Below are positions 22,507-53,722 of a DNA stretch of 64,000 nucleotides, piece by piece (position 1 is the first letter of the stretch; each line of letters starts with the position of its first letter). Position numbers and translations under genes: made by a program. The notes under the pieces are model-generated. The model saw nothing but the letters and a program-made list of their open reading frames with translations. It was not told where the DNA came from and searched no databases. Source of the DNA: Erwinia aphidicola. GTDB taxonomy: Bacteria; Pseudomonadota; Gammaproteobacteria; Enterobacterales; Enterobacteriaceae. The DNA lies in the NCBI RefSeq assembly GCF_024169515.1, contig NZ_JAMKCQ010000001.1:3534001-3598000 (forward strand), given 5' to 3'.

Positions 22507-22800
22507 CGTAACTTACTCATTATTCTTACATTAGTGACAAAGCTGCGGGCAAAGTAACGCTGGACGTGAAAGACCGATGACCCCGTGTCTCATCGCAAAG
22601 CCGTCAACCTCACGGATGTCGGCTGCTCTTGGGGCGCAAATACTCGGTAGCCTGTTTTACATATGGAAAAACAGCGCTTTGATAGGGAGAACCGCCAGTA
22701 TAATACCAGGTGAACCAATCCCGTTTTCGTCCAGGCTGCAACCCGCAGCCCGCTAAATGCCTGATTGCACAATACGTCTTACGCCATTGCTGCGTGTATG
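22507..22800 (-). ncRNA. RNase E leader, autoregulatory 5' UTR (rne5-type)
   Basis: The stretch before rne on the minus strand is non-coding and rich in stem-loops, in the place of the E. coli rne 5' UTR through which RNase E controls its own mRNA. Visible stems include CTGTTTT/AAAACAG (22674-22652), GCCGACATCC.../GACGGC near 22620-22600, GATGA/TCATC near 22593-22575 and GGCTGC/GCAGCC near 22755-22735. Assignment to the rne5 family rests on position, length and remembered similarity. A covariance-model search would settle it. Confidence 0.65.
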
Positions 22801-23121
22801 GGCTATCCGGCAAAATTTCGTATTACACCCTTATCTTTCAACTGCCATATAAAGGAAGGCTGAAAGCTATCGGGTAAACGCTTTTTTCTCGCATTCACAA
22901 GTCTTAGCGTCAAAACGGAAACATTATTCCATTGCTAAGCGGGTGATCGCAAGATGACTTTCTCCGCGTTGAGAAGTTTCTCTCAGCTTTTAGAGCGAAT
23001 TGCAGTGCTTTTCAGCAGATCGTCTAAAAACCGATCATAACCTTCTGCGAAACCGTCCAACTCAGTTAAGCACAGAAAAAGAGGTGGCGCTATCACAGCG
23101 CACTATTTAGAATCGCCAACC
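22801..23121. other. Gene-free gap between the rne leader and rluC
   Basis: This AT-richer stretch must hold the promoters for rne (leftward) and rluC (rightward). I see no ORF with recognisable product and no clear promoter pair that I would assign with confidence. Confidence 0.5.
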
Positions 23122-51835: not shown

Positions 51836-52639
51836 TTACTGAGTGATAAAATGCTCAAGCCCTTCGCACCAGCCTTGCGGGCCAAAATGTTCGGTGTGAT
51901 AGATATGGTGCTTATCCTGACGCTGCAAAATGACCGGATTTTTACTGTAGCCGTTAATCACTACCGCATAATCAACGGCGTCCAGCATCTCCGCATCGTT
52001 AGGGCCGTCCCCCAGGCCAATGGTGAGCGGTGGCCCCGCCGGGTGAGGGTAGTGCTGGAGCAACCAGCGCAGCGCCGCGCCTTTACCACATCCACTGCGC
52101 ACCACGGACCAGAAGCGCCCGCCCTGGATCAGGGTGAGATCCTGCTGCGCCAGATGCTGGCGGAACTCGGTGAAACGCTCCTCGCTGTCGCGCCAGATAA
52201 GGCTTTCCGAGGCCTCGCGCTGGCGTGCTAAAGCCGCCTGATGCGGGGCCAGCCCGGTCCAGTCGGAGACCTCCTTTTCACTGACTTCGGCAAAGCCGAT
52301 GAACCTGAAGCCGTGCTGCTGTTTCAGGCGCTGCAGCGTGCGGCACAGCGTGGCGTAATCGGTGCCGCCCGACTCCCTGAAAGGGCCAGCGCCGCTGCCG
52401 TCATCCCACTGCACCAGCGCGCCATTTTCAGCTATAAACGGCGCACCGGCGATCCCCAGCTGATCTTGCAGCGGGACGATCTCTGCTGCAGTCTTACTGG
52501 AGCAGATAACCAGCGGGATGTGCTGCGCATGCAGGCGTGCCAGCCAGGGTTCGGCGGGTTGCCAGCTATAGGTATGATGGTCCAGTAGCGAACCGTCGAG
52601 ATCGGTGATAATCATCACCGGGTCCTGCAACGTCGGCAT
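51836..52639 (-). CDS. gpgP: Glucosyl/mannosyl-3-phosphoglycerate phosphatase (YedP family)
   Basis: HAD-superfamily phosphatase, predicted to remove the phosphate from glucosyl-3-phosphoglycerate. The 267-residue protein has the HAD nucleophile motif MIITDLDGSLLDHHTYSW, motif II ICSSKT, the cap with WRDSEERF, and motif IV GLGDGPNDAEMLDAVDYAVV. It resembles E. coli YedP. I chose ATG 52639 because TGAGG lies 8 bases upstream; an ATG at 52669 lacks a ribosome site. It is divergent from a DsrA-like RNA gene, as yedP is from dsrA in E. coli. Confidence 0.85.
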   Translation of the reverse strand: MPTLQDPVMIITDLDGSLLDHHTYSWQPAEPWLARLHAQHIPLVICSSKTAAEIVPLQDQLGIAGAPFIAENGALVQWDDGSGAGPFRESGGTDYATLCRTLQRLKQQHGFRFIGFAEVSEKEVSDWTGLAPHQAALARQREASESLIWRDSEERFTEFRQHLAQQDLTLIQGGRFWSVVRSGCGKGAALRWLLQHYPHPAGPPLTIGLGDGPNDAEMLDAVDYAVVINGYSKNPVILQRQDKHHIYHTEHFGPQGWCEGLEHFITQ

Positions 52640-52878
52640 TGGCAATACCTCATAAGTGACGGTGAGCATTGAGTATAGTCCAGAGTTTCACAGGCGCAGG
52701 GAGGGCGTAAAGCGCTCGATAGCGGTTCGACAACTCCAGGAATTATCTTAAAAGCGAGTAAGAAAAGTGACGCGAGTGACAGTCGCGGGCGGTGCGAAAG
52801 ATCAGCAGTGGCGCAGGCTGTAGCCGAGAAGCTTGTACAGGCTGTGGATTTTTGTACAAATTAAACGGAAGTTAGGAG

Positions 52879-52906
52879 TTGTCTTAGTCAGACAATGCGT
52901 TACTCT
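52879..52906 (+). promoter_or_regulatory. Promoter of the DsrA-like small RNA
   Basis: TTGTCT (52879-52884), a 16-base spacer and TACTCT (52901-52906). The start of transcription is expected near 52912. Confidence 0.6.
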
Positions 52907-52911
52907 GATGA

Positions 52912-52992
52912 CGTCAATGAATTACCCAAGTAACGAATTCATTTCCTGTGAGAATACTTTATCCCGGCCAGTCACTGGCTGGGATTTTTTTT
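52912..52992 (+). ncRNA. dsrA: DsrA-like small RNA
   Basis: Predicted RNA of about 80 bases. It contains GUAACGAAUU (52930-52939), the core by which E. coli DsrA opens the rpoS leader, then UUUCCUG, and ends in ATCCCGGCCAG/CTGGCTGGGAT with eight T, close to the DsrA terminator (AUCCCGACC...GGUCGGGAU). A 5' stem-loop AATGAATT/AATTCATT (52916-52923 and 52936-52943) differs from E. coli, and buries part of the pairing core. Context agrees: a YedP-family gene diverges on one side and dsrB lies downstream on the same strand, as in E. coli. Alternative: an RprA-like rpoS activator. Confidence 0.72.
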
Positions 52993-53013: not shown

Positions 53014-53039
53014 AAAAAAAAAGCCCGCGCTGCGCGGGC
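53014..53039 (-). terminator. Orphan minus-strand terminator
   Basis: GCCCGCG/CGCGGGC, a 7-bp stem with a 3-base loop and nine T on the minus strand. The nearest minus-strand protein gene upstream starts beyond 59000, so it most likely ends the candidate small RNA. Confidence 0.88.
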
Positions 53040-53130
53040 AAAATCCTTGTTACTTTTGGTAGGCGGTCTCCACTCACGCTAACATCCAGGGGTGGAGACA
53101 GCCTTTCTGCGCCTTTGGGGTTGGTGCAGT
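53014..53130 (-). ncRNA. Candidate small RNA opposite and downstream of the DsrA-like gene
   Basis: On the minus strand a strong terminator (stem GCCCGCG/CGCGGGC, nine T at 53022-53014) has no protein gene before it. Upstream are an A-rich single-stranded stretch (CCAAAAGTAACAAGGATTTT), a 12-bp stem with one mismatch (GGC-GTCTCCAC/GTGGAGAC-GCC, 53103-53062), and a -10 box TAGAAT (53142-53137). No clear -35 is seen and no ORF fits. The layout is typical of an Hfq-type small RNA. I do not recognise the family. Confidence 0.55.
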
Positions 53131-53307: not shown

Positions 53308-53466
53308 ATGGACTTTTTACGCATTGTGATTGCGATTCTTTTACCCCCACTGGGCGTGTTTATGCAGGTTGGTTTTGGCGGAGCATTCTGGCTGAATATC
53401 CTGCTGACGCTGTGCGGCTACATCCCCGGTATCATCCACGCGGTGTGGGTGATTGCACGTCGCTAA
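53308..53466 (+). CDS. YqaE/Pmp3-family membrane peptide
   Basis: Hydrophobic 52-residue protein with two membrane segments: residues 3-20 (FLRIVIAILLPPLGVFMQ) and 27-48. It holds the family signature LPPLGV...GYIPGIIHAVWV (UPF0057/Pmp3), related to E. coli YqaE. Plant and yeast members affect membrane potential and salt tolerance; bacterial members are stress-induced but of unclear function. CGGAGAG precedes the ATG. A sigma-S-type -10 box lies upstream. It takes the place of yodD in the E. coli order. Confidence 0.93.
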   Translation: MDFLRIVIAILLPPLGVFMQVGFGGAFWLNILLTLCGYIPGIIHAVWVIARR

Positions 53467-53533: not shown

Positions 53534-53722
53534 ATGAAAGTTAATGAGCGCGTAACGGTAAAAACTGACGGCGGACCACGCCGTCCGGGGACGGTTCTGG
53601 CAGTGGAAGAGTTTAGCGAAGGCACCATGTTCCTGGTGGCGCTGGAGGATTATCCACTGGGGATCTGGTTCTTTAATGAATCTGGCCACGAAGACGGCAT
53701 TTTCGTCGAACCGCACCCGTAA
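53534..53722 (+). CDS. dsrB: DsrB protein
   Basis: Conserved 62-residue protein, starting [20 protein letters not shown] with [15 protein letters not shown] and [11 protein letters not shown], nearly identical to remembered E. coli DsrB. It is small, beta-rich and of unknown function; in E. coli it lies between rcsA and dsrA and is part of the sigma-S regulon. GGGAGAG precedes the ATG. Here the DsrA-like RNA gene is on the same strand upstream, as in E. coli. rcsA is not downstream. A hairpin GGCGAGG/CCTCGCC follows at 53756-53773 without a T-run. Confidence 0.92.

Follow-up and report, generated by a model that had tools for sequence, protein, structure and literature searches.

Erwinia aphidicola, a plant- and aphid-associated bacterium, very probably carries an ortholog of DsrA, a small RNA through which E. 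coli turns on its general stress regulator. This ortholog has drifted beyond the Rfam model and would pair with the rpoS leader and raise RpoS. The gene lies within the window, the whole stretch of 64,000 nucleotides that was analysed; it encodes an RNA of about 80 nt between yedP and dsrB that holds GUAACGAAUU, a 5′ hairpin and a strong terminator. We found no report of DsrA in E. aphidicola in the open-licence literature. The result would add a plant-associated genus and its relatives to the range of DsrA; Rfam annotation sees nothing there (0/22 Erwinia-genus loci). It would also make E. aphidicola a case of DsrA with rpoS pairing and without hns pairing. The features of the locus are:

51836–52669, minus strand: yedP (HAD-type phosphatase, PF08282), divergent neighbour, 43% identity over 271 aa to E. 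coli YedP
52737–52750, no strand assigned: distal RcsAB-box-like palindrome CAGGAATTATCTTA, 11/14 to TAAGAATATTCCTA, 186 nt upstream of the core
52873–52886, no strand assigned: proximal RcsAB-box-like palindrome TAGGAGTTGTCTTA, 11/14, overlapping the −35
52879–52884, plus strand: putative −35-like TTGTCT, compared by eye with TTGTCA of E. coli dsrA
52901–52906, plus strand: putative −10-like TACTCT, position kept in relatives
52911–52992, plus strand: RNA gene of the DsrA ortholog, start probably at 52911–52913; match to model R1 (see below) at 52898–52991, 64.1 bits
52916–52943, plus strand: predicted 5′ hairpin AATGAATT/AATTCATT, arms 52916–52923 and 52936–52943, GUAACG in the loop
52930–52939, plus strand: rpoS-pairing core GTAACGAATT, from its conservation and its exact complement in the own rpoS leader
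52942–52948, plus strand: TTTCCTG, read in the sequence
52942–52952, plus strand: linker TTTCCTGTGAG, common to E. rhapontici and E. persicina in the alignment; the first T differs in strain CFBP8797
52961–52985, plus strand: intrinsic terminator, 11-bp stem, T run to 52992, like the E. coli DsrA terminator
53308–53466: Pmp3-family gene between the RNA gene and dsrB
53534–53722, plus strand: dsrB, downstream neighbour, 90% identity to E. coli DsrB, PF10781

The RNA gene occupies the orthologous position. As the initial annotation had held, yedP diverges from it and dsrB follows on the same strand, a layout common to E. coli and E. aphidicola and confirmed by the identities of both neighbours; the true start of yedP is probably near 52639, as the alignment to E. 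coli YedP begins at residue 11. The core, TTTCCTG, both hairpin arms and the terminator named in that annotation were all found in place, and the terminator, with its 11-bp stem and T run, is of the DsrA type. The promoter-like pair fared less evenly: TTGTCT-16-TACTCT is in register with the promoters of relatives by eye, while a consensus scan for sigma-70 sites at the RNA gene found none (0.4 expected). The RNA would be transcribed toward dsrB, use Hfq and activate rpoS.

The search with the DsrA covariance model proposed at the outset failed with the Rfam model and succeeded with a model made from relatives. RF00014 scores 17.0 bits on the window site (E 1.5 in 661 bases), short of its cut-off of 60, and nothing across the whole E. 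aphidicola genome matches it at E ≤ 0.001. At low threshold, Rfam models gave 20 weak matches in the same 661 bases, mostly over a terminator and none near a cut-off, and these were set aside. Model R1 is a covariance model built from 22 aligned syntenic relatives, E. coli DsrA among them, with the aphidicola/rhapontici/persicina clade left out. It ranks the window site first in the 4.9-Mb genome, with 64.1 bits and an E-value of 3.5e-10 (R1 E-values are rough, by the tool's own warning); as the genome-wide top match of a held-out model, the site is therefore not a chance match. It is important to note that the columns of R1 extend over the −10 and the terminator, and that the relatives were chosen by place. 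The second genome match, at 36.5 bits, is a terminator, so that a terminator alone can reach this score; it lies between two genes that we take to be acetolactate-synthase-like and Cra-like, has no core and was rejected as a DsrA. Among the left-out relatives, R1 scores 67.2 bits in E. rhapontici, 66.2 in genome G168, 51.1 in E. persicina NBRC 102418 and 22.6 in E. persicina CFBP8797. All five scanned loci of the RF00014-type (the best 30 RF00014 matches with loci, 28 over the cut-off and two, L035 and L036, below it) match at 42–57 bits, and Mixta forms such as GAATTTCCTGGTGTAACGAATTTCATT bridge E. coli DsrA and the window form. Taken with synteny and the exact complement in the rpoS leader, the held-out model bears out the proposed DsrA-like identity, and descent of the window RNA from DsrA is well supported by these comparisons.

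The RF00014 model is narrow. At its cut-off it finds E. coli DsrA but none of the 22 Erwinia-genus dsrA loci and none of the 10 Mixta, Izhakiella and Sodalis-group loci with an RNA at this place (Sodalis group meaning Sodalis, Acerihabitans, Biostraticola and like records), and it exceeds the cut-off in 28 of 149 genomes sampled from the family. For the Erwinia genus we read the interval upstream of yedP in 30 of 37 genomes, three being without a yedP match and four with yedP being left out. The RNA is present in 23 and absent from seven, at whose loci R1 gave nothing better than E 1. Since 7/30 examined loci are without it, the RNA is dispensable. The seven include E. piriflorinigrans (G163, identical in sequence to L053) and Pantoea sp. 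BAV 3049 (G173, identical to L080), and the RNA was not found at the E. endophytica locus (L064) either. These loci are in line with the published statement that a DsrA homolog is missing from E. amylovora (PMC6538786).

Several variants were observed. At the dsrA locus of E. persicina CFBP8797 (L088, 1124–1213) the terminator and TTCCTGTGAG are kept and the GTAACGAATT core is lost. In Sodalis-group and related loci (L066–L071, about 2500–2640) the DsrA-like RNAs, of which TGATTTCCTAGTGTAACGAACTTT is an example, have a different middle stem, and none reaches the Rfam cut-off. Two Sodalis-group loci have further R1 matches of 31–32 bits about 2 kb beyond yedP (L067 5895–5976, L069 5973–6047). 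Facing dsrA in the window is a second small-RNA-like gene (53014–53130, minus strand, start probably near 53130) with CACTGCACCAACCCCAAAGG...AAGTAACAAGGATTTT and a GCCCGCGCAGCGCGGGC terminator. It has a TAGAAT/TACACT −10-like hexamer and, 11 nt ahead of it, a conserved ACTTCTGACA-like stretch that is too close for an ordinary −35. This gene could be aligned in 29 distinct Erwinia/Mixta/Izhakiella sequences (G157 dropped), is present also where dsrA is missing (G170, G172, G173, L064) and matches no Rfam family at its cut-off; E. aphidicola has an extra hairpin stretch inside it. Since length differences shift the frames, it is probably non-coding. Elsewhere in the window lies the RNase E 5′ UTR element rne5 (22531–22854, minus strand, 214.9 bits).

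Mean conservation of the core is 0.97 vs 0.71 in the flanks (22 relatives), and all 10 bases of the antisense core are complementary to the E. aphidicola rpoS leader, which holds TTTGAAATTCGTTACAAGGGGAAATCC, with GAAATTC beginning 108 nt before the start codon. An rpoS leader without a complement had been named as grounds for giving up the idea, and this does not apply. GAAATTCGTTAC is exact in E. coli and in 28/29 Erwinia-genus rpoS leaders in which the start was found (30 fetched; the start was not found in G159, and the core of G158 has one change). As part of the upstream gene, the leader stretch would encode FEIRYKGKSV; because of this coding stretch, the RNA had to fit a nearly fixed target. 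Mechanistically, GUAACGAAUU in the RNA would pair with AAUUCGUUAC of the nlpD-rpoS leader and thereby open the stem hiding the rpoS ribosome site, so that RpoS would be raised. Such leader opening is the known mechanism of E. coli DsrA.

Predicted duplex energies agree with this mechanism, although the E. aphidicola duplex is weaker than that of E. coli and most relatives: −23.3 kcal/mol (6/500 shuffles as good) vs −34.4 kcal/mol in E. coli (0/500), and down to −41.1 kcal/mol in other Erwinia. Beyond the core, the E. aphidicola pairing consists of CCC and scattered pairs only. Joint folding of leader and RNA narrows the gap, with gains of −10.1 kcal/mol in E. aphidicola and −12.0 in E. coli. 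In the 500-shuffle test the E. aphidicola leader (G000) stood in for own leaders that were unavailable. With a shorter rpoS target, 0/100 shuffles were as good for the window RNA, and all 62 RNAs had at most 5/100 (22/22 Erwinia-genus, 4/4 Mixta/Izhakiella, 6/6 Sodalis-group and 30/30 RF00014-type); here, the G000 leader and hns served for Erwinia-, Mixta- and Sodalis-type RNAs, and those of E. coli for the RF00014-type. On the strength of synteny, the held-out model, the leader complement and both shuffle tests, the initial annotation's idea of an rpoS activator gains support, and the window RNA most likely activates rpoS translation. Two rpoS genes themselves matched below the family cut-off: that of E. 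persicina NBRC 102418 (G160:C6:58717-59382) is shorter than the model and has stops inside, and that of G166 (C3:3094417-3095119) is split in two pieces; both defects may be strain-specific or sequence errors.

The altered 5′ stem-loop claimed for this RNA is real in the predicted fold, as the hairpin is built from other bases than in E. coli. In full-length folding its inner pairs have P about 0.9 (0.91) at 37 °C and 0.99–1.0 at 15 °C, the outermost pair 0.64–0.71 at 37 °C; if the RNA is begun at 52917, the hairpin is absent from the predicted fold. The stem takes in AAUU of the core. A weak consensus stem AGAATTT/GAATTTC lies at this place across the group, and the long hairpin of the window is absent from the predicted folds of E. 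rhapontici, G168 and E. persicina NBRC 102418. In E. rhapontici and G168, with a 5′ end 8 nt longer, another 5-bp stem covers part of the core. The further suggestion of a changed control of target access did not hold up as well: since the core is at least as exposed as that of E. coli DsrA (mean unpaired probability 0.51 vs 0.43), altered access through the hairpin would be a possibility only. We also considered a two-state switch between the 5′ hairpin and UUCAU/GUGAG, with minima of −22.4 and −22.1 at 37 °C, and rejected it, as the probabilities are 0.91 vs 0.07.

Pairing with hns is absent from the predictions for E. aphidicola. The window RNA reaches −8.4 kcal/mol (457/500 shuffles as good, one of two hns-like genes) vs −27.7 kcal/mol (0/500) in the E. 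coli control. The chromosomal hns of E. aphidicola has an intact copy of the site that E. coli DsrA targets, and the E. coli RNA could bind there (8/500 shuffles as good). An intact site facing an RNA that is not predicted to pair fits the view that, of the two partners, the hns mRNA site came first and its match in DsrA later (PMC4114697). A clean family-wide split in hns pairing was rejected, as 2/22 Erwinia-genus, 2/4 Mixta/Izhakiella and only 10/30 RF00014-type RNAs pass the 5-in-100 test.

Upstream of dsrA we found two Rcs-box-like palindromes, which are new here and which specialists would want to test. Both are candidate sites and match 11/14 positions of TAAGAATATTCCTA, a form of the RcsAB box used as scoring reference. 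The published box is a 7-7 inverted repeat, TAAGAAT-ATTCTTA (PMC7298118). The best conserved match in Erwinia-group promoters, T(A/C)(A/G)GA-N4-TC(T/C)TA by eye, lies over the −35. At least 10/14 within 2 nt of one offset is reached by 19/25 Erwinia/Mixta loci and by 3/1000 random places in these loci. E. coli dsrA has no proximal box (8/14), and a proximal box in RF00014-type promoters (57–60 nt upstream of the core) was set aside as a weak signal, with a mean of 8.4/14 vs 6.1 for all offsets; one proximal scoring took 27 of the 30 RF00014-type loci (three without a core match), and the offset, pairing and distal tests took all 30. The distal box is the best match of the 165–230 nt interval, at 178–191 nt upstream of the core, in 26/26 Erwinia/Mixta/Izhakiella loci, with scores of 9 to 13 of 14 and at least 10 in 23/26. 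In E. coli it lies at 188 nt (10/14), and among RF00014-type loci the 165–240 nt interval holds at least 10/14 in 23/30 and at most 7 in 4/30, with one locus (L016) reaching 14/14 at 186. In the background, 8% of 79-nt stretches reach ≥10/14, and in nine loci without dsrA the best palindrome match in 270 nt was 8–10.

Whether these are Rcs sites is a separate matter. There is about an even chance that some other regulator binds the palindromes, or that they act on yedP, and that Rcs does not control dsrA. The matches are partial (proximal 6–12, distal as above), and the distal box sits in the yedP upstream region too; nevertheless, its distance to the yedP start is more variable (about 95–134 nt in Erwinia-genus loci, 23 in E. 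coli) than that to the dsrA core, and the perfect distal box of L016 also speaks for Rcs. Control palindromes came from 150 shuffles, with repeats, of one 7-base half site. In the Erwinia group they average 7.63 (sd 0.36) with a best of 9.08, against 10.31 for the published palindrome and 10.65 for TAAGAATATTCCTA. In the RF00014-type the values are 9.37 and 9.80, the former barely above the best control (9.27). The case for the palindromes is accordingly a strong one for the Erwinia group, but elsewhere only modest. The positive control points the other way: E. coli rprA is a known Rcs target, but has only 8/14 at −42, which is not the best match of its own promoter. Because of this weak control we grade the Rcs reading lower, even though a box with partial matches to the published inverted repeat does stand at a conserved place. 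In E. aphidicola, RprA (RF00034) was found at 84.6 bits with a box, TAAGAGGATTCTTA, that matches at 11/14 and has its centre 42 nt ahead of the match start. RcsA is present (65% identity to E. coli RcsA, E 9.4e-86), and the best match upstream of rcsA is 8 of 14.

No report of an Rcs site at dsrA was found in the open-licence literature; two papers name Rcs as a regulator of rprA and low temperature as the inducer of dsrA (PMC11331407, PMC3634460). According to another, deletion of rcsB in E. coli K92 alters dsrA RNA, up 7.6-fold at 19 °C and down 1.4-fold at 37 °C (PMC3673037), which counts against a regulator other than Rcs and which Rcs control of DsrA could explain. An operator over the −35 would fit repression, but E. 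coli is without the proximal box. On the Rcs reading, which is less certain than the pairing mechanism, RcsB, with or without RcsA, would bind both palindromes, the one over the −35 and the one some 185 nt ahead of the core, and control dsrA transcription directly. That Rcs acts on dsrA directly is a hypothesis open to testing, suggested by the promoter sequences. If it is true, RprA and DsrA would both answer to Rcs envelope stress. The conserved palindromes give a concrete reason to ask whether envelope stress controls DsrA.

A broader proposal is somewhat doubtful: dsrA, regarded as the rpoS activator under temperature control, would be a direct target of the Rcs phosphorelay across the family, with the distal candidate box at a near-fixed distance from E. 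coli to Erwinia and a second one over the −35 in the Erwinia group, while in the aphidicola/rhapontici/persicina clade the rpoS seed would be eroding, a new linker kept and the small RNA changing its targets. On a rival reading, the window RNA would be a DsrA relic losing or changing its job, transcribed, with rpoS no longer its main target and the conserved linker UUUCCUGUGAG as a new seed. We consider this unlikely. The clade does pair weakly with rpoS (−20.1, −24.0, −24.0, −23.0 and −20.6 kcal/mol vs a median of −27.1 for the 22 Erwinia-genus RNAs), but equally weak values occur outside it (G177, −20.8; G162, −23.2). The core is mutated in E. persicina NBRC 102418 and gone from CFBP8797 while TTCCTGTGAG stays, yet all ten core bases are present in E. 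aphidicola and eight of them in E. rhapontici. In the 500-shuffle test, E. rhapontici reaches −25.6 kcal/mol (0/500) and NBRC 102418 −24.6 (8/500), with CFBP8797 near chance at −22.2 (63/500; 3/100 on the shorter target). No conserved target emerged for the linker. In the search for linker targets, CTCACAGGAAA as an exact match occurs three times in the genome, once opposite the RNA itself and once abutting the start of a gene that we take to be yecE; this match at the ribosome site of G000 is not kept in relatives, the E. rhapontici and E. persicina yecE leaders being without a full match, and yecE was rejected as a target. Finally, that an unrelated small RNA arose at the same place and resembles DsrA in terminator and core by chance is very improbable: the poor RF00014 E-value and the equal or better scores of other small RNA families on the terminator would suit it, but intermediate forms connect the window RNA to E. 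coli DsrA, the neighbours are the same and the held-out model finds it genome-wide.

A DsrA ortholog that would still act on rpoS is the preferred reading. Its RNA falls in the length class of E. coli DsrA. E. coli has yodD between dsrA and dsrB, whereas E. aphidicola has the Pmp3-family gene there instead. In E. coli DsrA the UUUCC arm extends the rpoS duplex; in the E. aphidicola RNA this arm is reduced to CCC and degraded at its 5′ place. Likewise, E. coli DsrA has an antisense arm to hns, for which the E. aphidicola RNA has no predicted counterpart. A weakened seed and the lack of predicted hns pairing mark the E. aphidicola DsrA, and Rcs-linked control is a possible further trait. RprA is, like DsrA, an rpoS-activating small RNA, but a different gene with a different sequence, and compared with its box the proximal box of dsrA lies about 10 nt closer to the presumed start and overlaps the −35.
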